DNA from: a virus
Length of the DNA: 43,583 bases
Virus record (IMG/VR): IMGVR_UViG_3300034417_000021
Coordinates: 1-43,583 of that record
Direction: 5' to 3' (one strand)
Shown here: positions 2,180 to 5,848 of the stretch, piece by piece
Numbering within the stretch: position 1 is the first letter of the stretch
How the letters are laid out: each line of letters begins with the position of its first letter
Notes under the pieces: generated by a model
What the model saw: only the letters and a program-made list of their open reading frames with translations
What the model was told of the DNA's origin: nothing
The model's database searches: none
Position numbers and translations under genes: made by a program

Positions 2180-2428
2180 ATGAGCAGACAGACAGCACGT
2201 ACCACGTACGGCGCGGGCCTCACGACGAGCGAGCGGCGCCAGTGGAACCGACAGACAGACGCGCTCCTCGCGCGTCGTTCGGCCGACTGCCAGCGATCGA
2301 TCGCGGCGCGTCGGCAGGCGGAGGCGGCGACAGTCGCCCGCCTCACGGCCTCGCATCCCGGGGCCTCGTGGCACTACGTGAACCACCCGACGGTGGGCCG
2401 CGTGCTCGTGAGCGTGCCCAATGACTAA
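2180..2428 (+). CDS. hypothetical protein
   Basis: 82 residues with an Arg/Gln/Ala-rich helical N-terminal two thirds and a short C-terminal beta segment (SWHYVNHPTVGRVLVSVP). The purine stretch GGGCGAGGGCG upstream is a weak ribosome binding site. It overlaps the next gene by eight bases at 2421-2428. No family recognised. Confidence 0.6.
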   Translation: MSRQTARTTYGAGLTTSERRQWNRQTDALLARRSADCQRSIAARRQAEAATVARLTASHPGASWHYVNHPTVGRVLVSVPND

Positions 2429-2987
2429 CGCCGCCCTCGTGCTCTCCGCGAACATGCAGCCGATCGATCGGCTGATCGCCTCCGTGATGATCTCGCGCGC
2501 GAAGCGGGAGATCCGGCGCGACGTCGAGGCCGGGCAGGTTCCCGCCGACGTCGCGAGCTTCGCCGATCTCCACGATCACGCCGACGCGAACTGCTACGGC
2601 GGCGCCGACGAACCGACGTCGCCGATCTACTACGTCTCCGGCGAGGGCGGCGACGAGCCGCAGCGGGCGGAGTGGGCGGCCCGGATCCATAACTTTGTAA
2701 TGGAGCGGCTCGACACGTGGATCAAGGCGGGCGGGCTCCGCGCAGCGCCGCCGACGGAGCGCGCCGACTGCGAACACGACGATCGCGAAGTCGTCGCGAC
2801 GGTGATGATCTCGTGCAAGTTTTGCGGGTTCGATATCGGCGAGAACCGGGGCGCCGACGTGCGCGAGGGCATGCTCACGTGCGAGAGTTGCGGCGGAACG
2901 TTCGCCGTCCCGGCCGCCGCGATTCATGACGCGCAGTGGCAATGCCTCGTCGCTCTCGGCGAGGCCGATCCCGACGAGGGGAAGTGA
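2421..2987 (+). CDS. hypothetical protein with C-terminal zinc ribbon
   Basis: 188 residues. The N-terminal half is helical (DRLIASVMISRAKREIRRDV). Near residues 134-157 two pairs, CKFCG and CESCGG, form a likely zinc ribbon. This suggests nucleic-acid or protein binding, not a defined reaction. It ends in a GTGA overlap with the cytosine methyltransferase gene, so the two are probably co-translated, but a shared role is only inference. Confidence 0.65.
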   Translation: MTNAALVLSANMQPIDRLIASVMISRAKREIRRDVEAGQVPADVASFADLHDHADANCYGGADEPTSPIYYVSGEGGDEPQRAEWAARIHNFVMERLDTWIKAGGLRAAPPTERADCEHDDREVVATVMISCKFCGFDIGENRGADVREGMLTCESCGGTFAVPAAAIHDAQWQCLVALGEADPDEGK

Positions 2988-4786
2988 TCCCGCGTGTCGA
3001 GCACCCGTACACCGTCGGATCGCTGTTCGCCGGGATCGGCGGATTCGATCTCGGATTTGAGCGAGCCGGATTCCGGATCCTCTGGCAATGCGAGGCCGAC
3101 GAATTCTGTCGAGCCGTCCTCCGGCATCATTGGCCCGACGTTCCCTGCTATGGAGACGTCCGGATCCTGCATCCCGTTCGACTGGCCGACGCCGGAAGCG
3201 AAGAACGCGTCGTCGGGTCCGGATCTCGCGAGGCGGAACCGGCCGGGGAGCGGGGGCGACGATCTGGTTACGACGGTGGAGCGGGCGATCTGGCTCACGC
3301 CGGCGGCGTCGGACGCAAACGGGGAGCGGGAGCCCGACGGCAAACGCTCGACGGGTCTGAATACGCAAGCCGTGTCGACGTCCTCGTCGGCGGGTTCCCG
3401 TGCCAGGACGTCTCCGACGCTGGCAAGCGAGTTGGTCTGGACGGGGATCGATCCGGGCTCTGGTACGAATTCGATCGTCTCATTGGCGAGTTTCGCCCGC
3501 GGATCGTGGTTATCGAGAACGTCCGAGGACTCATTGTTCGGGGAATCGATGCCGTTCTCGGATGCTTGGCCGATCGAGGGTATGACGCGGAGTGGGCGAT
3601 TGTACGAGCGTCCGATGTTGAAGCGCCGCACCGTCGGGAGCGGATCTTCATCATCGCGTATCGACGACTGGCTGACGCCGAACGCGACTCCCGACGCGAC
3701 GAGCAACAACGGCACGAACGCGGGGCGCCCGGCGACGGGCAAGAGTCTCGCGAGGCAGGCCCGGGGCGACTGGCCGACGCCGATCAGCGAGGACAGCGAG
3801 AGTCGCACGGCGAACGGAACGCTGACCGACGCGGTTCGGCAGAAGGATCCGGAGTGGCCGACTCCCGACACGATCAACCGCAAGAGCCGACGCGCGATGA
3901 CGGCCTCGACGAACAATGGGCGCCGGAGCGGGGGCGGGCAGTCGTCGCCGCCGGGCCTCGAGCAAGCGGCGGAACTGTCGGAGGGGATCATCCCGCGGGA
4001 ACTCGAGAACCTCGACGAGCTCCCGCCGAAAACCCGATCGATCTGGCCGACGCCGACGGCGATGGACGCGGCGGGTTTCGAGGGGAAGCCCGACGTCGGC
4101 CGCACGAGCCCGAACTCCGGCCGCACGCTCACGGGAGCGGCCCGCGACGCGGATCCCGATGGTGCGAGCTGTACTCCGTCTGCGCCGATCCGAACCGATG
4201 CGACGATCCCAACGACTGCCGACTCGCGCGAGACGGCCGCGACGCTCCCGACGGATGGCGATGGGATCCGGAGATCGATGAGTTTGTGGCCGACGCCGCA
4301 GACGACGGACGCGAACGCGGCGGCCCGCCACACGACGACGACGGGGATCATGCACTCGGGAACGACGCTCACCGACGCGACGCGCGCAGCGGAGGAGGAG
4401 GCGACGGAACCGCCGGCGTCGAATTGGCTCACGCCGCAGAGCCGGGATCACAAGGGGATCTCTCAGAAGGTCGCGAAGGGTCTATACACGGGCGGGCTCC
4501 CCGATCAACTCGCTGGCCTGCAAGACCGGGAGAAGCTCAGTACGAGTGGGAGCCTCCCCGCGTCGTCTCCTCGTCCCGTGCTAAATCCGGATTGGGTCGA
4601 GAGCTTGATGGGTTTCCCGATCGGATGGACGGACGTCGGCGTGCAAAGCGCCGCGAGCGGCTCGGCGCGCTCGGGAACGCGATCGTCCCGCAAGTCGCCG
4701 AACTCGTCGCCTATCGAGTGATCGAGATCTTAGAGTGGCAGGACACGCGCGGTACGGAGGGCGAGCCGGCCGATCGCGATCGGTGA
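2984..4786 (+). CDS. dcm: DNA cytosine-C5 methyltransferase
   Basis: 600 residues from GTG 2984 (GTGA overlap). It methylates cytosine C5 in DNA using SAM. Visible motifs in order: motif I FAGIGGFDLG at about 15-24; motif IV GGFPCQDVS with catalytic Cys140; motif VI ENV at 178-180; motif VIII-like APHRRERIF near 218; motif X GNAIVPQ at about 565. It is longer than usual because of two low-complexity Asp/Arg/Gly-rich stretches, one between motifs I and IV and one of about 320 residues between VIII and X, where the target-recognition region should be. These stretches hold repeated LADA/LAHA/VADS units that coincide base for base with W[P/L]TP repeats of a second frame (see 2994-4721). Likely role: protection from host restriction. 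The recognition sequence cannot be read from the protein. Confidence 0.9.
   Translation: MIPRVEHPYTVGSLFAGIGGFDLGFERAGFRILWQCEADEFCRAVLRHHWPDVPCYGDVRILHPVRLADAGSEERVVGSGSREAEPAGERGRRSGYDGGAGDLAHAGGVGRKRGAGARRQTLDGSEYASRVDVLVGGFPCQDVSDAGKRVGLDGDRSGLWYEFDRLIGEFRPRIVVIENVRGLIVRGIDAVLGCLADRGYDAEWAIVRASDVEAPHRRERIFIIAYRRLADAERDSRRDEQQRHERGAPGDGQESREAGPGRLADADQRGQRESHGERNADRRGSAEGSGVADSRHDQPQEPTRDDGLDEQWAPERGRAVVAAGPRASGGTVGGDHPAGTREPRRAPAENPIDLADADGDGRGGFRGEARRRPHEPELRPHAHGSGPRRGSRWCELYSVCADPNRCDDPNDCRLARDGRDAPDGWRWDPEIDEFVADAADDGRERGGPPHDDDGDHALGNDAHRRDARSGGGGDGTAGVELAHAAEPGSQGDLSEGREGSIHGRAPRSTRWPARPGEAQYEWEPPRVVSSSRAKSGLGRELDGFPDRMDGRRRAKRRERLGALGNAIVPQVAELVAYRVIEILEWQDTRGTEGEPADRDR
2994..4721 (+). 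CDS. overprinted W[P/L]TP-repeat protein in the +1 frame of the C5 methyltransferase gene
   Basis: A second frame, open for 575 codons from GTG 2994 (523 from ATG 3150), lies wholly inside the methyltransferase gene. It has eight W[P/L]TP units (for example DWPTPEAK, IWLTPAAS, NWLTPQSR), a stretch FSDAWPIEGMTRSGRLYERP and a C-terminal LNPDWVESLMGFPIGWTD. I recall these patterns from phage proteins found with C5 methyltransferases, often annotated as methyltransferase-associated. It has no SAM or catalytic motif. The ATG at 3150 lacks a good ribosome binding site. It could be a real overlapping gene, or a conserved by-product of the methyltransferase repeats that is annotated elsewhere by mistake. 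Confidence 0.45.
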   Translation: MSSTRTPSDRCSPGSADSISDLSEPDSGSSGNARPTNSVEPSSGIIGPTFPAMETSGSCIPFDWPTPEAKNASSGPDLARRNRPGSGGDDLVTTVERAIWLTPAASDANGEREPDGKRSTGLNTQAVSTSSSAGSRARTSPTLASELVWTGIDPGSGTNSIVSLASFARGSWLSRTSEDSLFGESMPFSDAWPIEGMTRSGRLYERPMLKRRTVGSGSSSSRIDDWLTPNATPDATSNNGTNAGRPATGKSLARQARGDWPTPISEDSESRTANGTLTDAVRQKDPEWPTPDTINRKSRRAMTASTNNGRRSGGGQSSPPGLEQAAELSEGIIPRELENLDELPPKTRSIWPTPTAMDAAGFEGKPDVGRTSPNSGRTLTGAARDADPDGASCTPSAPIRTDATIPTTADSRETAATLPTDGDGIRRSMSLWPTPQTTDANAAARHTTTTGIMHSGTTLTDATRAAEEEATEPPASNWLTPQSRDHKGISQKVAKGLYTGGLPDQLAGLQDREKLSTSGSLPASSPRPVLNPDWVESLMGFPIGWTDVGVQSAASGSARSGTRSSRKSPNSSPIE

Positions 4787-5079: not shown

Positions 5080-5228
5080 GTCGATACCTCCTCGCGCTCC
5101 TCGTCGGCCTCGCGTGCGGCGCCGTGGCGCTCCTGATCCGGAGCCGTCGGCGATCGACGCTCGATCGCGAAGCGGCCCGCCTCGCGAGCCTGGGCACGGT
5201 CGAGGCGCACCGGGAGCGCCGACAGTGA
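5076..5228 (+). CDS. small single-pass membrane protein
   Basis: 50 residues. Residues 3-21 (RYLLALLVGLACGAVALLI) form one transmembrane helix, followed by a basic, helical cytoplasmic-type tail (RSRRRSTLDREAARL). The positive-inside rule would place the tail in the cytoplasm. It overlaps neighbours by ATGA and GTGA between two DNA-modification genes. Membrane proteins this size in early operons can act in superinfection exclusion or host takeover, but nothing specific is visible. Confidence 0.55.
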   Translation: MSRYLLALLVGLACGAVALLIRSRRRSTLDREAARLASLGTVEAHRERRQ

Positions 5229-5848
5229 CGGTCAAGCGAGCGCAGTCGTTCGCGTACCTCCGCACGAAGGGCCGTCACTCGTGCGACTCCCCGGAGTGGT
5301 TCACGCCGGCGCCGTTCGCCGACGCGGCGCGCGAGGTGTTCGGCGGCGAGATCGATCTCGATCCGGCGTCGCACGCGGAAGCGAATCGGATCATTGGCGC
5401 GCTCCGCTATTTCGACAAGCGAGCGAACGGCCTCCGTCTCCGATGGCGCGCCGGGTCCGTGTTCATCAACGCGCCCGGCGGGCTCGTTCCGGAATTCTGG
5501 CACCGGCTGATCGACGAGTGGGAGGCCGGTTCTTTCAAGGCGGCGATCTGGATCGGCTACTCGATCGAGCAGCTTCAAACGCTCCAGGGGTACGAGGTTC
5601 GCTCGCCGCTCGATTTTCCGATCTGTGTTCCGGAGCGCCGGATCCCGTTCGTCGAGAGCGAGGCGAAACGGCTCGAGCGGTTCGCGAAGATCGACAAGGA
5701 AAACCGGCGCCGCCGCGTCGAGGGCCTCGCGCGCCTCGAAAAGAAAACGGCGGCCGCGCCGTCGCACGCGAACTACATCACGTATATCGGCCGGGCTCCG
5801 GCGAGGTTCGCCCGCGTGTTCGGGGCATTCGGCCAGGTCAAACGGTAG
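5225..5848 (+). CDS. Dam-family DNA N6-adenine methyltransferase
   Basis: 207 residues from GTG 5225. It matches the phage DNA N-6-adenine-methyltransferase family: SPEWFTP near 22-28, the acidic IDLDPASHAEAN at 43-54, and the catalytic segment FINAPGG at 80-86 followed by EFW. The catalytic NPPY-type motif is NAPG here; related phage enzymes, as I recall, use NPPG, so Ala83 is a departure that may lower activity. The C-terminal third is basic and may bind DNA. Likely role: anti-restriction methylation beside the C5 enzyme. Confidence 0.8.
   Translation: MTVKRAQSFAYLRTKGRHSCDSPEWFTPAPFADAAREVFGGEIDLDPASHAEANRIIGALRYFDKRANGLRLRWRAGSVFINAPGGLVPEFWHRLIDEWEAGSFKAAIWIGYSIEQLQTLQGYEVRSPLDFPICVPERRIPFVESEAKRLERFAKIDKENRRRRVEGLARLEKKTAAAPSHANYITYIGRAPARFARVFGAFGQVKR

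Follow-up and report, generated by a model that had tools for sequence, protein, structure and literature searches.

A nested +1-frame gene conserved in phage C5-cytosine methyltransferases and its proposed role in target recognition

Introduction

The locus examined here raises the question of whether two proteins are encoded simultaneously by the same phage DNA and, if so, what the second protein contributes. It lies in the IMG/VR virus record IMGVR_UViG_3300034417_000021, a tailed-phage contig of 43,583 nucleotides (nt) in which head, protease and tape-measure genes are seen; this whole stretch is referred to as the window and coordinates are positions in it. All evidence is computational. 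At 2984–4786 a C5-cytosine methyltransferase frame, termed M, and the +1 frame relative to M, termed W, are open together on the same strand, at the coordinates given in a preliminary description of the locus. As described there, complete C5-methyltransferase motifs (Cys140, ENV and GNAIVPQ) are located in M, and W is a 575-codon frame in which eight W[PL]TP units are read along with FSDAWPIEGMTRSGRLYERP and LNPDWVESLMGFPIGWTD. The units start at 3183, 3291, 3669, 3771, 3855, 4044, 4287 and 4425. All eight coincide with a repeat in M, as had been claimed, but the M reading is LADA at four of them only (3183, 3669, 3771 and 4044), the others being LAHA (3291 and 4425), VADS (3855) and VADA (4287). 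Of the two explanations that had been offered, one was a long-lived dual-coding locus; the other was that repeats in a target-recognition region give rise to the second frame as a by-product.

Results

Stop avoidance and conservation in the +1 frame

Because this double coding is found again in hundreds of sequences from phages and prophages, W is almost certainly a genuine overlapping gene of long standing and no artefact of reading, with both frames predicted to be protein-coding. Two scans of viral contigs with W as the query each returned at least about 600 stretches, and W lies in +1 to the methyltransferase in 130 of the 132 loci scored. In the two loci scored as +2 the best methyltransferase match was another open reading frame (ORF), and both also contain a catalytic ORF with W in +1. 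The loci range down to 34% guanine plus cytosine (GC).

Stops and conservation were assessed by comparing observed values with M-synonymous codon shuffles in 100–118 non-redundant loci. Over catalytic columns 0–60 the W frame contains 199 stops against 189 expected, and the counts then fall to 9 against 67 (columns 61–96), 8 against 116 (columns 97–125) and 2 against 74 (columns 126–158). From just upstream of the PCQ motif onward (columns 61–158), 19 stops are thus observed where 257 are expected and, since stop avoidance starts there, W coding appears to begin just upstream of PCQ. From about catalytic column 97 on, W residues are also conserved beyond the level imposed by M, with z reaching 18 in 118 non-redundant loci, and the W positions of the doubly constrained stretch 3543–3620 are among those conserved beyond M in these 118 loci. 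The stop test is controlled internally by the +2 frame and by those columns that precede PCQ; clear comparisons lacking W comprise only E. coli dcm and one contig, too few to serve by themselves as a control. Locus L211 and others like it were considered as W-free controls and dropped, since they carry a nested ORF of a second family, W', described below.

Of 102 loci that had not been preselected as open, 93 keep M open along the W units, where 6.1 would be expected to do so; a separate count of zero M stops over the units is partly due to the selection of open loci. Searching with M alone recovered W or W' in 79 of 80 contigs, the query alignment having been built from W-bearing loci and the search being therefore not fully unbiased. 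In 57 loci found in this way stop avoidance was again in +1, and the +2 frame displayed none. A C5 catalytic domain accompanied every W found, the one exception being L084, where the contig is cut at its edge.

Substitution pattern in the two frames

In a close relative, L087, both frames are likewise open and the upstream neighbour is the same. Differences between it and the window were classed by W codon position, W1/W2/W3 being equal to M2/M3/M1. They amount to 10/20/13 at the methyltransferase N-terminus, 7/4/25 in the insert at 3172–3370 (identity 89% in W and 52% in M), 2/16/6 over motifs IV–VIII and 18/16/42 in the unit region. Thus, M is constrained over the catalytic motifs and W over the units, and the constraint on W is uneven along the locus. 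None of the 78 nt of 3543–3620 has changed between the two phages, and entire units have been gained or lost at unit borders with both frames preserved. A similar pattern is displayed by 35 independent pairs. In their unit region the differences are 826/757/1497 at W1/W2/W3, so that W third positions hold 1497 of 3080, with identities of 0.70 for W and 0.48 for M; over catalytic columns 61–125 they are 206/667/328, with identities of 0.67 and 0.84, respectively. These data indicate that the constrained frame switches where the units begin and that W evolves under purifying selection. The preliminary description had proposed that frequent W-frame stops in homologues, or neutral evolution of that frame, would speak against a gene; neither was found, and the comparative stop and substitution tests bear out its option of a long-lived dual-coding locus.

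Chance, composition and codon usage in the window

The window is 68% GC and contains 113 ORFs of at least 150 amino acids, and a 502-amino-acid ORF on the minus strand covers the same place. Since such a composition gives many long ORFs, ORF length alone is weak evidence, and the decisive evidence for the predicted dual coding is comparative. When M was recoded with the codon usage of the phage, W stayed open in 0.8% of trials, and when W was recoded M stayed open in 0.2%. Third-position GC in the unit region is 0.853 for W and 0.63 for M, the ordinary genes of the phage ranging from 0.84 to 0.87; M is nearer normal in its catalytic and C-terminal parts. The antisense frames displayed no general opening.

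Arrangement of units and motifs among relatives

M matches PF00145 (5.8e-41), phrog_363 (6.4e-71) and TIGR00675 (3.4e-35) and contains a catalytic domain as defined by PF00145, with PCQ, ENV, motif VIII and motif X (GNxxxPQ); HRRERIF is also read in its translation. No target-recognition domain (TRD) of its own is evident between motifs VIII and X of the window M. W matches phrog_1008 (E 3.7e-26) and phrog_26627 (6.2e-6) and has no match in Pfam, HNH included, at E up to 1.

Four arrangements of M, the W units and motifs IX and X occur among the loci. In the first, displayed by most loci (117) including the window, W is nested, motif X lies in M and the motif-IX-like block lies in W. In the second, the split form of Blue7 gp92/gp91 and Heather gp35/gp36, M stops after motif VIII and W consists of the units followed by IX and X. 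In the third, a single chain found in about 30 actinophage loci such as DillTech15, units, IX and X are all read in the M frame, with the units between motifs VIII and IX. In the fourth, restricted to a few loci (L031 and L043), the units are in W, and IX and X are in M. The same units are found in both frames: for 96 W units a twin at 50% identity or more is read in the M frame of another locus, some of the twins being identical, and the window unit at 3183 matches W-frame units (Blue7, 76%) as well as M-frame units (L178 and L195, 74%). The motif-IX-like element is nearly invariant across 77 W proteins and shares one frame with motif X in the single-chain relatives.

C5 methyltransferases keep their target-recognition domain between motifs VIII and IX. 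Since the units of the single-chain forms fill this very space, W is best read as a target-recognition chain. The M-frame text over the units appears to be the shadow of target-recognition modules encoded by W; thus, of the second explanation offered for the locus, the target-recognition part stands, with the modules seemingly encoded by W itself, and the by-product part does not. The single-chain protein L174 was confidently modelled along its full length as a C5 methyltransferase, with a predicted template modelling score (pTM) of 0.82, and resembles M.HhaI with Z 23.0 over 258 residues (root-mean-square deviation 4.3); the M-frame shadow stretch has a predicted local distance difference test score (pLDDT) below 50 in this model. 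The W profile gave no useful match to Protein Data Bank sequences.

Two side observations concern the actinophage forms. L174, L193 and L214 (1501–2700) are near-identical mycobacteriophage genes in which single-base differences in G or C runs toggle between the single-chain and the split form, which could be real switching or sequencing error. In L004 (2504–3847) and its relatives (L167 and others) an M insert after ENVRG(I/L)LSA encodes the start of the W N-domain in +1 (W.PTRQLWETD..LFSGHSEPYSETLPTSGMTRNG); a partial W frame therefore persists in single-chain actinophage enzymes, though the units have moved to M.

Features of the locus

The features of the locus are collected in Table 1. 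Candidate W starts are GTG 2994, just past the upstream stop, and ATG 3150. Two more predicted DNA methyltransferases flank the locus at 357–953 and 5114–5848 (phrog_67 and phrog_111), which brings the phage total to at least three.

Table 1 Features of the M/W locus, in order of position in the window
Feature	Position	Strand	Remarks
Upstream gene	2421–2987	+	Stop codon overlaps the M GTG start; same neighbour in relative L087
M, C5-cytosine DNA methyltransferase, catalytic polypeptide	2984–4786	+	600 amino acids; GTG 2984, stop 4784–4786
M motifs I, IV, VI, VIII and X	Motif IV (Cys140) 3401–3403; motif VI (ENV) 3515–3523		Present in the translation
W, predicted nested gene, at most 575 codons	2994–4721	+	+1 to M; open frame, profile match, selection tests
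Insert between M motifs III and IV with the first two W units	3172–3370	+	3183 WPTPEAK..., 3291 WLTPAAS...
Doubly constrained stretch	3543–3620	+	W N-domain ESMPFSDAWPIEGMTRSGRLYERPML over the M motif VI–VIII region
Six further W units, proposed target-recognition modules	3669–4580	+	M maintains an open, repetitive and hydrophilic linker
Motif-IX-like element LNPDWVESLMGFPIGWTD in W	4581–4634	+	SGLGRELDGFPDRMDG in the M reading
Motif X GNAIVPQ in the M frame	4673–4693	+	

Discussion

A two-polypeptide methyltransferase as the probable product

M and W probably form one enzyme jointly, with M as its catalytic and W as its target-recognition subunit, a reading drawn from sequence comparison. One C5-cytosine methyltransferase would then be built from two polypeptides in overlapping frames. 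M would provide cofactor binding, catalysis (motifs I–VIII) and motif X, the stretch between VIII and X being a non-specific open linker; W, separately translated in +1, would contribute a short N-domain overlapping motifs V–VIII, then the WPTP module array and the motif-IX-like element LNPxWVExLMGFPxGW. The two chains would associate into a heterodimer in which each module or module pair reads a different target, and the phage would methylate several sequences and so resist several host restriction enzymes. Such an anti-restriction role fits the presence of two other predicted DNA methyltransferases in this phage. That each module has exactly one target is a narrower proposal, to which about equal weight is given for and against. 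Similarly balanced is the broader idea, taken as a whole, that this ancient +1 gene, common in phage C5 methyltransferases, is a cassette of exchangeable target-recognition modules forming a combinatorial specificity subunit, and that phages reshuffle the modules and shift them between frames, changing which restriction systems are evaded.

How W would be translated is suggested by its starts. Among W-frame ATGs located 30–110 nt before PCQ, 24% have a Shine-Dalgarno match of at least 5 bases, against 5% further downstream in the frame. In the window, expression by coupling is likely, because the stop of the upstream gene is flanked by the start of M (2984) and the first one of W (2994).

Several points weigh against this assignment. 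Neither candidate W start in the window is preceded by a good Shine-Dalgarno sequence. W modelled alone with AlphaFold gave a poor structure (pLDDT 62, pTM 0.28), which fits a subunit needing a partner but proves nothing, and the target-recognition fold of the W modules is itself a proposed one. Finally, the methyltransferases bearing W' have a complete, in-frame target-recognition domain, and part of the W family may thus do something other than target recognition.

W' (phrog_16143) is a second nested +1 family with the pattern LTLFA.DSP...DGLSSRTSP...GW.NSGM...KYYLSPKAARGILRRAEKRGK.LP. It overlaps C5 methyltransferases in L211, L212, L215, L218, L232, L234, L236 and L238–L241 (about 1500–2200) and also avoids stops. 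Because W' nests in methyltransferases with their own recognition domain, the W N-domain may have a further role.

Alternative explanations

The alternative that survives best, although it is unlikely, holds that W is a real nested gene for an independent phage protein, such as an anti-restriction or regulatory factor, and no subunit of the enzyme. The W N-domain does resemble W' (hhalign probability 94%, E 9.6e-8, the two overlapping the same M motifs and hence being not fully independent), and W' sits in methyltransferases with complete TRDs. An independent protein would, however, leave unexplained why the W modules occur in frame at the TRD position of single-chain methyltransferases, why W carries motifs IX and X in the split forms, why M of the nested loci has no evident TRD of its own and why no W was seen apart from a C5 catalytic domain, bar the edge-cut contig.

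Programmed frameshifting, joining M motifs I–VIII to the W units in one chain and possibly returning to motif X, is less probable still. The single-base differences in homopolymers between fused and split forms of the mycobacteriophages L174, L193 and L214 speak for it, but both frames are constrained at once for about 60 codons before the junction, W is kept open about 100 codons upstream of it and M is kept open through the units. In addition, many loci have an internal ATG with a Shine-Dalgarno sequence, and a return to motif X would require a second shift.

The view that W does not code, and arises from high GC together with repeats of a target-recognition region in M, is extremely improbable and was rejected, since the many long spurious ORFs given by high GC and the repetitive M shadow text (LADADG) are outweighed by stop avoidance and synonymous-site conservation in W given M, by unit substitutions concentrated on W third positions, by loci of low GC and by a W codon bias like that of the phage's genes.

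Comparison with known systems

In M.EcoHK31I (YGGCCR) the coding sequence of the small chain overlaps that of the large chain in another reading frame. In that enzyme motifs I–VIII and X are on the large chain and IX is on the small chain (PMC3404938), and by motif distribution the window displays the same split, with I–VIII and X in M and IX in W. In contrast, the TRD of M.EcoHK31I is predicted on the large chain, whereas the second frame of the window holds the TRD-position modules, with up to eight in the array. Since these modules and the motif-IX-like element are read in +1, the window M by itself could be no more than an incomplete version of a monomeric enzyme. M.AquI consists of a catalytic I–VIII chain and a C-terminal chain (PMC3404938), a division resembled by the split relatives Blue7 gp92/gp91 and Heather gp35/gp36; the AquI type has motifs IX and X together on the small chain, as do the split relatives L001 and L002, whereas the window retains motif X in M, and its small gene lies nested within the large one and does not follow it. 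Two-piece C5 enzymes reassemble, both the natural M.AquI and M.EcoHK31I and fragments of M.HhaI, M.BspRI, M.BsuRI and M.SssI, and split C5 methyltransferases complement best when cut between motif VIII and the TRD (PMC3404938).

The multispecific C5 enzymes of Bacillus temperate phages of the SPbeta group have several arrayed target-recognition domains and protect against many restriction systems (PMC12707154). As described, they resemble the window in having several target-recognition modules in a phage enzyme, but theirs is a single polypeptide in a single frame. TRD modules and catalytic domain in one chain are found in the roughly 30 actinophage relatives and not in the window. Some phage DNA methylases of the ShiLan type contain an out-of-frame HNH endonuclease gene while their own frame stays open (PMC11855218). 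The window similarly has an out-of-frame gene within a phage methylase that is kept open; W differs in lacking an HNH match and in being a regular part of its family. A side observation is the HNH-like zinc-binding insertion just before PCQ of the nested M/W locus L011 (2198–2920).

The families phrog_1008 and phrog_26627 are the same W family as that of the window and are annotated only as 'DNA methyltransferase' or hypothetical. In some records of Paenibacillus phages the nested W has already been called (Tadhana_54/55; Redbud_51, 'g50 internal gene'). No paper on the dual coding, on its breadth or on a second-frame modular array was found in a search that covered few subscription papers and preprints.

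Distribution and significance

The viral contigs with double coding number at least in the hundreds, and it also occurs in bacteria of many phyla (422 stretches); the W locus is a very widespread putative variant of two-polypeptide C5 methyltransferases. It is rare for a long same-strand overlap to be conserved between highly diverged sequences. Most records annotate one frame; half of the proposed enzyme is therefore missed, and many C5 methyltransferases seem to have a low-complexity TRD that would really be a shadow. Should W be the specificity subunit, frame-shared selection over hundreds of codons becomes testable at this locus, and so does the idea that the modules encode methylation targets, a code that would aid in predicting which phages resist restriction.

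Among bacterial records, one chromosome of an uncultured Roseovarius (OX638333.1) contains five copies of the W locus (L275–L279). Klebsiella, Salmonella and Citrobacter plasmid records (L166, 1122–2138, and H171–H180) also contain the nested M/W pair or its W frame, and mostly only the M frame is annotated in them, as DNA cytosine methyltransferase.
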